Source: Prochlorococcus sp. AG-315-I14
Lineage (GTDB): Bacteria > Cyanobacteriota > Cyanobacteriia > PCC-6307 > Cyanobiaceae
Assembly (NCBI GenBank): GCA_003283665.1
Contig: QBWF01000020.1
Location: 1-11,013, forward strand
Length of the DNA: 11,013 nt
Reading direction: 5' to 3'
A program made the translations under genes and the position numbers. This document shows positions 4,085-6,731 of this stretch, piece after piece. The notes under the pieces are model-generated. The model was given only the letters and a program-made list of their open reading frames with translations, made no database searches and was not told where the DNA came from. Numbering within the stretch: position 1 is the stretch's first letter; each line of letters starts with the position of its first letter.

Positions 4085-5248
4085 TTAATTTCTTATTTGT
4101 ATGGGCATTACTAAATATATAAAATTAAAATCATCATCTACAGGAGAAAAAACAGCAGGTGTCGTAGGTGAATTACAACTTAATTGAACACTCATTGTAT
4201 CTATTACTTTTAAACCTTCTAATAAATATCTTACATTAAATGCAATTTGAAAAGAATCAGAATTCATAATTACTGATAATGATTCTGAACCACTTCCTAT
4301 ATCTTGAGCTTCAGTAGTAATTTTAACTATATTAGATTCTTTGTCAGCAATCATTTTTATGACATTATTATGTTGATCAGCTAAAACAGCAATTCTTTCA
4401 AGAGAAGAAATTAATTCTTTTCTATCAAATTTCAACTTTTTAGAAAAAGACTCAGGTATTAATTGTGCATAGTTAGGATAAGAACCATCTAAAGTTCTAA
4501 TCGTAATTATTTGATCAGAAGCTATAAAAACCACTTGACCTTTATCTATAAAAAAGTTAACTGGTTCATTCCTCGCAAAGTTGCTTAAAAATTTTTCAAC
4601 TTCTTTTAAAGACTTTGACGGAAGTGTAATTGAAAATTTTTCAAATGAATCAATATTATTTTTATCATCATTTTTGTCATATAAAATATCATTTAAATTT
4701 AAAACGGCTAATCTATGTCCATCAGTGGCAGCAGATTCTACTCCTTGTCCATTAAAAGTAAGATTAACACCTGTTAATAATTGCTTAGCTTCATCAGTAC
4801 TACTTGCAAATAACGTTGATTTAATAGCATTAGATAAAAAAGTTGAATTCAATTTAAGTGATGTTCCTGTTTCAACAAGAGGTAAGTCAGGAAAGTCATC
4901 AGCGATCATTCCACGCATTTGATAGCTACCACTCTTACTAATGAGTTCTACTTGTTGACTATCTTCATCAAGATTTAAACAAAGAGGTGAATCGTTTGAT
5001 AATTTTGAAACAATTTCTCCAAATAATTTTGCCGGTAGTGTGATCTGACCACTTTTTTCAACTGAAGCATGCAAAGAAATTTGAATTCCCAGACTTAAAT
5101 CAAACCCTGTAAGACAAAGTTTTCCTGTACTAGCATCGGCAGTCAATAAAACATTGGCTAACACAGGATGAGTTGGTCTAGCTGATACAGCTCTGCTCAC
5201 AAGCTGTAATGCAATATTCAACTCAGATTGAGAACAATTTAATTTCAT
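4085..5248 (-). CDS. dnaN: DNA polymerase III beta subunit (sliding clamp) DnaN
   Basis: Forms the ring-shaped dimeric clamp that tethers DNA polymerase III and many repair proteins to DNA. The length of 387 residues fits three clamp domains per monomer, roughly 1-125, 126-255 and 256-387. Recognisable family stretches are SRAVSARPTHPVLANVLL (18-35), GFDLSLGI (48-55), DDFPDLP (117-123), FASSTDEAKQLLTGV (147-161), ATDGHRLAVL (174-183), RTLDGSYPNYAQLIP (251-265) and the C-terminal YLVMPIQI (378-385), whose MPxxx end lines the partner-binding pocket. A charged loop DKNDDKNNID (191-200) looks like a lineage-specific insertion. The ATG at 5248 has no good Shine-Dalgarno. It is the first gene left of the putative origin, transcribed away from it, and heads an operon with the PRC-barrel protein, purL and purF. 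As usual in cyanobacteria, dnaA is not next to it. Confidence 0.98.
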   Translation of the reverse strand: MKLNCSQSELNIALQLVSRAVSARPTHPVLANVLLTADASTGKLCLTGFDLSLGIQISLHASVEKSGQITLPAKLFGEIVSKLSNDSPLCLNLDEDSQQVELISKSGSYQMRGMIADDFPDLPLVETGTSLKLNSTFLSNAIKSTLFASSTDEAKQLLTGVNLTFNGQGVESAATDGHRLAVLNLNDILYDKNDDKNNIDSFEKFSITLPSKSLKEVEKFLSNFARNEPVNFFIDKGQVVFIASDQIITIRTLDGSYPNYAQLIPESFSKKLKFDRKELISSLERIAVLADQHNNVIKMIADKESNIVKITTEAQDIGSGSESLSVIMNSDSFQIAFNVRYLLEGLKVIDTMSVQLSCNSPTTPAVFSPVDDDFNFIYLVMPIQIRN

Positions 5249-5375
5249 CCAGTTATTTCAAAGAATTACTTTGACTTAAGACTTTCATAGCTATTTCAGT
5301 ATGGCAATACCTTTAAAAGAAACGAAATTTTTCTTGTTCTAACTCTATTCTTCTTTTCTTATAAAGAAATTGAAT

Positions 5376-5409
5376 TAGTAGTAGTAGTCTTTGTGGATTT
5401 TGTGGATAA
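5376..5409 (-). promoter_or_regulatory. Tandem DnaA boxes plus DnaA-trio-like element (origin unwinding core)
   Basis: Read 5'->3' on the minus strand: a perfect box TTATCCACA (5409-5401), an abutting box-like AAATCCACA (5400-5392), the spacer AAGA (5391-5388), then CTA four times (5387-5376), followed by AT-rich DNA. This is the order and polarity known for the Bacillus subtilis unwinding core, in which DnaA loads from double-stranded boxes onto repeating 3'-GAT-5' trinucleotides of one strand. The second box differs from TTATCCACA at two positions, and the spacer is not GC-rich as in Bacillus. The function is inferred from the match in layout. Confidence 0.65.
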
Positions 5410-5489: not shown

Positions 5490-5519
5490 TTGTCCACAGT
5501 TAGTTGACTCTGTGGAAAA
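5490..5519. promoter_or_regulatory. Inverted pair of DnaA boxes
   Basis: TTGTCCACA (5490-5498, one change from the E. coli consensus) and TGTGGAAAA (5511-5519, exact complement of the cyanobacterial consensus TTTTCCACA) face each other. Their cores form a perfect 7-base inverted repeat, TCCACAG (5493-5499) and CTGTGGA (5510-5516), with a 10-base loop. Confidence 0.65.
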
Positions 5520-5551
5520 CATTTTTTTATTTATGTTTGATTTTTTATCTT

Positions 5552-5560
5552 TTTTCCACA
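5552..5560 (+). promoter_or_regulatory. DnaA box, cyanobacterial consensus
   Basis: TTTTCCACA matches the DnaA box form reported for Synechococcus and Synechocystis exactly. It sits after a T-rich run (5522-5551) and is the rightmost box of the putative origin, 65 bases from the thrC stop. Confidence 0.6.
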
Positions 5561-5624: not shown

Positions 5625-6731
5625 TCAAAAGCCCATCGTTTTTGCGATTGAATTTATTTCAGGATCTAAACCTGAATGAAATATTGAATCATTGTTGTTG
5701 AGAGCACATTCAGGATCTTTTAATCCATTACCAGTTAAGACACAAACAATAGTGCTATTTTTAGGTACTTCATTTTTTAATTTTAGAAGACCTGCTACTG
5801 AAGAAGCACTTGCAGGTTCACAAAAAATACCCTCTTCTTTTCCAAGTATCTTGTAAGCATTAATTATTTCTGAATCAGTTACTGATGAAAACTTACCATT
5901 GCTAGATTCTTTTGCTAATAGGGCTTTTTCTTTATTTACTGGGTTACCTATTCTAATTGCAGTTGCGATTGTTTCAGGATTCTCAACAGTTTCACCAAGT
6001 ACTAATGGTGCAGATCCACTTGCCTGAAAACCCATCATTTTAGGAAGTTGTTTAGATTTATTAGCTGAAAAATATTCTTGAAAACCCATCCAATATGCAC
6101 TTATATTCCCAGCATTTCCCATTGGTATACATAACCAATCAGGAGCATTTCCAAGATTTTCTATTATTTCAAAAGCAGCCGTCTTCTGTCCTTCTAATCT
6201 GAATGGATTAACTGAATTTACTAAAGTTATTGGATATTTTTCTGATAATTCTCTAACTATATCTAGCGCTTTATCAAAGTTTCCTTTAATAGCAAGAATC
6301 TCTGCTCCATACACTAATGCTTGAGCAAGTTTACCTTGAGCAACAAATCCGTCTGGGATGATTACAAATGCTTTCATGCCTCCTTTTCTTGCATAAGCAG
6401 CAGCAGAAGCAGATGTATTACCTGTGCTTGCGCAAATTACTGCTTCACATCCAGATTCTTTAGCTTTGCTTAAAGCCATTGTCATTCCTCTATCTTTAAA
6501 AGAACCTGTTGGATTTAAACCGTCATATTTGACATAAACTTGTACTCCGTTTCCAATACGATCAGATATTGATTTAACTGGTAAAAGAGGAGTGGCTCCT
6601 TCATATAGTGATATTACTGGTGTTTTTTCTGTGACTGGTAACCATGGTCTATAGGCATCAATAAGACCAGCCCAATTATTTTTTTTTGGAGCTGTATTGA
6701 GAAATTGTTTTAACTTTTTTGAGAATGCCAC
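5625..6731 (-). CDS. thrC: Threonine synthase ThrC (GTG start)
   Basis: PLP-dependent enzyme of the last step of threonine synthesis, converting O-phosphohomoserine to threonine and phosphate. At 368 residues it is the compact bacterial form. Fold-type II motifs are present: [10 protein letters not shown] (74-83) with the PLP lysine K79, [14 protein letters not shown] (101-114), the PLP phosphate loop [11 protein letters not shown] (203-213), [11 protein letters not shown] (305-315) and LTGNGLKDP (332-340). The start used is GTG at 6731-6729, giving [10 protein letters not shown]; no ATG lies in frame just upstream and no clear Shine-Dalgarno is visible, so the first residues are uncertain. 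The gene follows the DUF1400 gene by 26 bases and is probably the last gene of that cluster. It is transcribed toward the origin. Confidence 0.95.

Follow-up and report, generated by a model that had tools for sequence, protein, structure and literature searches.

Introduction

In the basal unwinding system (BUS) of bacterial replication origins, DnaA-trios of the sequence 3′-GAT-5′ are carried on the 5′ tail (PMC8287927). In Bacillus subtilis the orientation of the DnaA boxes matters (PMC6669920), and the structure of the complex indicates how a trio is read: the first base (G) is bonded by Arg202 and Glu228, the second base (A) is bonded by Asn187 via its amino group, and the third base faces away (PMC10721633). 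According to the same source, the trios retain activity when the middle A is replaced by C, whereas G or T at this position reduces it.

For cyanobacterial origins, DoriC gives dnaN as a border (PMC6323995), and Prochlorococcus is described as being without a DnaA box near dnaA (PMC4674748), which fits an origin located elsewhere. Here, we analysed a stretch of 11,013 nucleotides of a Prochlorococcus (hereafter the window), in which an earlier note had recognised a DnaA-trio-like repeat beside tandem DnaA boxes and interpreted it as a BUS. The note considered the picocyanobacterial setting significant because DnaA is dispensable in some other cyanobacteria. In this phylum, DnaA has on several occasions been lost or become dispensable, and the Paulinella chromatophore lacks dnaA (PMC7198777). 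However, the setting is less novel than proposed, since Synechococcus elongatus DnaA is reported to open its own box-plus-trio scaffold in vitro, for which boxes and trios are both required (PMC8287927); the main text of this study makes no mention of Prochlorococcus. We conclude, with a probability of roughly 90%, that positions 5376-5409 represent the BUS of the oriC of a Prochlorococcus, which would be opened by DnaA.

Results

The plus strand of positions 5376-5409 reads TAGTAGTAGTAG TCTT TGTGGATTT TGTGGATAA. These letters exactly confirm the order claimed for the minus strand, where TTATCCACA is abutted by AAATCCACA and followed by four bases, four CTA triplets and AT-rich DNA, all upstream of dnaN. 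The distal box TTATCCACA (5401-5409, minus strand) corresponds to the perfect consensus, while the trio-proximal box AAATCCACA (5392-5400, minus strand) is weaker, with two mismatches to TTATCCACA. A spacer of four bases (5388-5391) separates the boxes from the four DnaA-trios (5376-5387), which constitute 3′-GAT-5′ repeats on the plus strand as the read strand and CTA repeats on the minus strand. Past the trios lies the candidate unwinding element (5326-5375); its GC content of 20% over 50 bases ranks around the lowest decile of the window and is not extreme. On the far side from the trios, three additional boxes are located within positions 5490-5560, namely TTGTCCACA with one mismatch (5490-5498, plus strand) and two copies of TTTTCCACA (5511-5519, minus strand, and 5552-5560, plus strand).

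The published survey defines a BUS by two co-oriented 9-mer boxes, the better one with at most two and the other with at most four mismatches, a distance of about 10-13 bases between the better box and the first trio, and at least three trios with a middle adenine, preferably 3′-GAT-5′, on the strand of the 5′ tail (PMC8287927). In the window the two co-oriented boxes show zero and two mismatches, the better box is placed 13 bases from the first trio (the 9-base second box plus the 4-base spacer), and four exact trios are present on the plus strand. AT-rich DNA follows directly past the trios, though it is unremarkable for the window. The order and strand polarity, which the earlier note had likened to the BUS of B. 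subtilis, thus agree with the published position of the trios on the 5′ tail (PMC8287927) and the effect of box orientation (PMC6669920).

The module is located upstream of dnaN, encoding the DNA polymerase III beta subunit (4085-5248, minus strand; TIGR00663, 322 bits, cut-off 138). On its far side, the origin region is bordered by thrC, encoding threonine synthase (5625-6731, minus strand; TIGR00260, 326 bits, cut-off 167). Among named genomes, the nearest derive from single cells of Prochlorococcus, whose DnaN is 90-91% identical, and a search of viral contigs for the same dnaN gave no match. In addition, we observed a second conserved block, GGTATTGC...TGAAATAGCTATGAAA, on the minus strand at about 5281-5312 between the AT-rich DNA and dnaN, which is also present at the loci L002 and L004 and is perhaps the dnaN promoter or leader. 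The single-cell contig QCHR01000019.1 (19 kb) harbors dnaN twice, in inverted orientation and with the same score (L008 and L009), most likely an amplification chimera.

The run of four CTA triplets occurs once in the 11,013 bases, both strands included, and none of 200 dinucleotide shuffles yielded such a run. The earlier note called four uninterrupted exact trios striking in this AT-rich DNA. DnaA boxes alone are common in the window, since TTWTCCACA with at most one mismatch was matched 8 times compared to 8.97 expected matches. The part that is not due to chance is the combination, order and conservation of boxes and trios. In a scan without imposed geometry, the box-box-trio score amounted to 28 for the window and to 23-28 for 32 loci of the genus, whereas it remained at or below 21 in 160 shuffles of those loci.

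We then compared the regions upstream of dnaN from 121 family loci, one genome per species, and the window; 121 of these 122 regions could be scanned, as the contig of L020 ends 75 bases upstream of dnaN. The genus loci comprise every dnaN place found, except for one partial gene and one second copy, the 68 family loci outside the genus were chosen among the matches listed, with at least 243 of 261 genomes giving a match, and 20 loci from 47 matching genomes, together with G058, represent the other Prochlorococcus genus. Among the 121 scanned family loci, including the window, the geometry-free scan revealed abutting boxes with a spacer of four bases in 100, a shift by one triplet in 13 and another arrangement in 8. 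Module spacing and trio register are therefore kept in 113 of 121 loci, and five loci scored at the level of the shuffles (≤21). The deviant or low-scoring loci are GC-rich, barring L058, L072, L076 and the contig-cut L056. Within the genus, the spacing is exact in 30 of 32 loci and off by one triplet in the other two. The earlier note had named the outcome that would speak against its own reading, namely close relatives in which the TAG run is missing or its spacing to the boxes changes; this outcome was looked for and not found.

As L056 is mis-anchored, because the start of its contig cuts the distal box, the following counts refer to 120 family loci, in which the register was anchored and the spacing consequently imposed. 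CTA is present at trio 1 in 113, at trio 2 in 106, at trio 3 in 94 and at trio 4 in 62 of these loci. All four trios are perfect in 52 of the 120 family loci and in 24 of 32 genus loci; the four exact copies emphasised in the earlier note are real for the window but no constant of the module. Trios 1-3 carry 1.69 bits of information on average and trio 4 carries 1.31, compared with 1.20 in the boxes and 0.45 in the spacer, which is conserved in length and free in sequence. The AT-rich stretch just past the trios starts at 0.75 bits and drops to 0.44, and the outer flanks reach 0.29 and 0.18 bits. The distal box lies within two mismatches in 94 and the proximal box in 85 of the 120 loci; in the genus the boxes are often below consensus, with TTAACCACA and GAAACCACA being common. 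In line with the test proposed in the earlier note, the spacing within the module is kept and its surroundings drift; the distance between trio 1 and the start of dnaN ranges from 118 to 174 bases.

The CTA run might alternatively be a chance trinucleotide repeat beside DnaA boxes or the product of slippage, by which uninterrupted trinucleotide repeats can arise, and the number of perfect copies does vary among the loci. However, the shuffles do not produce the run, the same register relative to the tandem boxes recurs in 113 of 121 loci drawn from one genome per species, and the changes within the repeat are base-specific and not random, as detailed below. This explanation is therefore hardly credible, and a BUS is by far the more probable one.

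The spacing recurs in genomes that came from a draw across the phylum. The pattern of two boxes, four bases and C..C..C..C with at most one mismatch is matched by 75 of 386 genomes. A clear CTA module is present in 18 genomes that are absent from the family draws, as judged by reading the matched strings by eye, and these genomes are probably outside the family. The remaining matches represent family genomes, or apparent repeats or chance matches. A looser genome-wide pattern with up to three mismatches was found in 69 of 146 phylum genomes, but since a backwards control matched often as well, only its near-perfect matches are meaningful. In the phylum genome G312 (C1:1860-1890), a perfect module of two boxes, four bases and CTA is located some 0.5 kb beyond dnaA and at a large distance from dnaN; therefore, the module need not adjoin dnaN. 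In 59 loci from the phylum that were not part of the main family sample, where dnaN is not always the origin border, the module was detected in none of the 6 loci without a DnaA over the cut-off and in 13 of the 53 with DnaA. This difference is not significant (p of about 0.2, calculated by hand), and the claim that loss of the module tracks loss of dnaA was dropped.

The position 118-174 bases upstream of dnaN in 120 family loci, together with the role of DnaA in regulating genes in B. subtilis (PMC7198777), would also suit an operator or promoter that is kept for the transcription of dnaN, with DnaA regulating this gene instead of opening DNA. For a promoter element, a fixed distance to the gene is expected; here the spacing within the module is kept and the distance to dnaN varies, and in G312 the module is remote from dnaN altogether. 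Moreover, the substitution pattern of the trios described below fits the capture of bases on a single strand (PMC10721633). We thus regard a function in dnaN regulation alone as very unlikely compared to one as a BUS.

For the genus relative G008, with its near-complete single contig, skews were computed in 20 samples of 20 kb, and they support placing the origin at dnaN or close to it. All 10 samples to one side of the module have a negative T-A skew and all 10 to the other side a positive one, so that the sign switches between the two samples flanking the module. The GC skew stays above zero throughout the 10 samples of one side (mean +0.041), and on the other side it is negative in 7 and positive in 3 (mean -0.023). 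The best switch in GC skew maps to -142 to -47 kb (contrast 0.0655), one sample off the module, which is next best (0.0644). In this genome the module is separated from dnaA by about 0.57 Mb, taking the shorter way round.

The trio-reading residues were looked up in the DnaA of relatives. Of the two closest relatives of the window, one yielded no DnaA and one a partial DnaA. The DnaA of G004, a relative from the genus, aligns end to end with the B. subtilis DnaA chain 8btg, and the equivalents of Asn187, Ile190, Ile193, Arg202, Glu228 and Arg264 are identical, as counted by hand on the alignment. Asn187, Ile190, Ile193, Arg202 and Glu228 are kept in 7 of 7 DnaA proteins of the family, a sample without the GC-rich genomes that harbor the most altered trios, and the arginine-finger pattern was matched in 6 of the 7. 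One marine Synechococcus DnaA has 7005 homologues. Of the best 120, which are all at least 93% identical to the query and hence of little diversity, 119 contain the Asn187-Ile190-Ile193 motif and all 120 contain the Arg202, Glu228 and arginine-finger motifs.

The base readout seen in the structure predicts how trios should vary in nature, and we tested this prediction in the GC-rich members of the family, where the trios do vary. The set consists of the dnaN loci of 60 GC-rich and 38 GC-poor genomes, the latter including the window; the tree set excludes L003 (75 bases upstream) and L009, the second of two copies on one contig. From the 60 GC-rich genomes, 26 were found via dnaN alone, and 34 were chosen among matches to a pattern with open middle bases, C at base 1 and at most one mismatch overall; L222, L225, L227 and L243 are pattern matches without a dnaN row. 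Changes were counted by parsimony on trees of the single gene dnaN, and the protein trees (98 and 60 taxa) and nucleotide trees (60 and 98 taxa) gave the same picture; any p-value from these counts is rough, given tree error, ties and shared history.

On the nucleotide tree of the 60 GC-rich taxa, base 1 underwent about four changes, a count that leans on an anchor rewarding C. Base 2 changed 34 times, comprising 29 T↔G exchanges on the top strand, which correspond to A↔C on the read strand, one T↔C, two C↔G and two A↔G. Accordingly, A↔C accounts for 29 of 30 middle-base changes involving A, as compared to 27% at fourfold dnaN sites of the same taxa, where T↔C makes up 65% of the changes involving T. 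Trio 2 alone shows A↔C in 12 of 13 middle-base changes. At base 3 of the GC-rich loci L251-L310, 28 of 33 changes exchange A and G on the top strand, corresponding to T and C on the read strand, against a neutral share of 34% of the changes of A. These biases indicate that the trios evolve under the rule 3′-G-[A/C]-[T/C]-5′ on the read strand. When only the boxes were used for anchoring, 89 of 98 loci returned the same unique register and the base spectrum was unchanged, and we therefore rejected an anchoring artefact as the source of the rule. Exceptions with T or G as the middle base of the read strand occur in 6 and 3 of the 98 loci, respectively.

The rules for bases 1 and 2 fit the B. subtilis structure, but it does not account for the preference for pyrimidines at base 3, a base that faces away from the pocket there. 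At least one C-centred trio, exemplified by CTACGACTACGG on the complementary strand, is present in 53 of the 60 GC-rich loci, and only 7 of the 60 contain three consecutive in-register trios with a middle A, as demanded by the published survey, although its program may accept other registers (PMC8287927). The authors of this survey suspected deviant trios without a middle A (PMC8287927), and in the open-licence literature searched we found no report of natural C-centred trios. Taken together, these data make it likely that the trio is not fixed as 3′-GAT-5′ or NAN and that C-centred trios repeatedly evolved in GC-rich relatives under 3′-G-[A/C]-[T/C]-5′, being read via the amino group of the middle base, with an additional preference for a pyrimidine at base 3.

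Base pairing offers another explanation for these changes, if the distal trios of the GC-rich relatives were kept as one arm of an inverted repeat forming a hairpin or cruciform around the AT-rich element and not for reading by DnaA. In the GC-rich loci L251-L310, an inverted repeat exceeds the shuffles with p ≤ 0.05 in 17 of 60 loci and with p ≤ 0.01 in 9 of 60. The arms are located at about +6 to +16 and +35 to +55 from the first trio, the first mostly in or just past trios 3 and 4 and the second beyond the AT-rich element. Their sequences vary by locus (CGGCTGTT, CTACGGGT, ACGGATTGA and GACTACTGGATTG), which hints at a conserved structure. However, trio 2 also obeys the A↔C rule, and in 16 of the 17 repeat-bearing loci this trio is not covered by the left arm. 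In GC-poor loci, p ≤ 0.05 was reached in 7 of 94 and 7 of 38, the latter exceeding the expected 5%, and among genus loci in 4 of 32. In the window no such repeat surrounds the AT-rich element, as 85 of 200 shuffles were equally good, and a hairpin was rejected as an explanation of the window. Pairing as the cause of the trio changes is thus very improbable, and reading by DnaA remains the preferred explanation.

Discussion

The anatomy of the module, its conserved spacing and its polarity support the interpretation of positions 5376-5409 as a BUS, and the skew of a relative and the residues retained in the DnaA proteins of relatives point in the same direction. Opening by DnaA we infer from analogy to B. 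subtilis and S. elongatus. By this analogy, DnaA would bind the tandem boxes at 5392-5409, and the AAA+ domains would extend as an oligomer over the 4-base spacer onto the plus strand. Adjacent protomers would then capture G and A, bases 1 and 2 of every 3′-GAT-5′ trio, the captured plus strand would be held away from its partner strand, and the AT-rich DNA at about 5326-5375 would open for helicase loading.

By this interpretation, an ocean picocyanobacterium carries in its origin a textbook-clean, conserved module that is predicted to open DNA. What is new lies in the evolution of the system, namely the natural recognition code of the trios in the relatives. How the trios vary across the family gives a read-out of which bases are recognised by DnaA once the DNA is single-stranded. 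This read-out is consistent with the model derived from cryo-EM and biochemistry in a distant bacterium, to which it adds the pyrimidine preference at base 3. If the code is correct, the substitution tolerated in B. subtilis biochemistry has arisen repeatedly in nature. Likewise, searches for trios with a middle A would overlook these origins, and GC-rich origins elsewhere may conceal BUS elements.

Among the known systems, the module resembles the BUS of B. subtilis oriC, composed of boxes 6/7 and trios, in its pair of co-oriented boxes, the distal one being the stronger, and in the short spacer, 3′-GAT-5′ trios and AT-rich DNA that follow (PMC6669920, PMC10721633), and the trio-reading residues are identical in the DnaA of Prochlorococcus relatives. 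In contrast to B. subtilis, the probable origin of the window is positioned upstream of dnaN and, in the relative G008, at the distance from dnaA given above; moreover, as compared by the published description, the window differs in its four exact trio copies and its weak trio-proximal box. The BUS of S. elongatus stems from the same phylum and depends on both boxes and trios for strand separation in vitro, and its DnaA is reported to be active with ADP as well (PMC8287927). A CTA-type run beside boxes and unwinding DNA, 5′-CACCTACTACTATTACTACTATGA-3′, is likewise described for oriC2 of Clostridioides difficile, whose origin differs in being bipartite around dnaA and in containing more, less perfect trios (PMC7561715).
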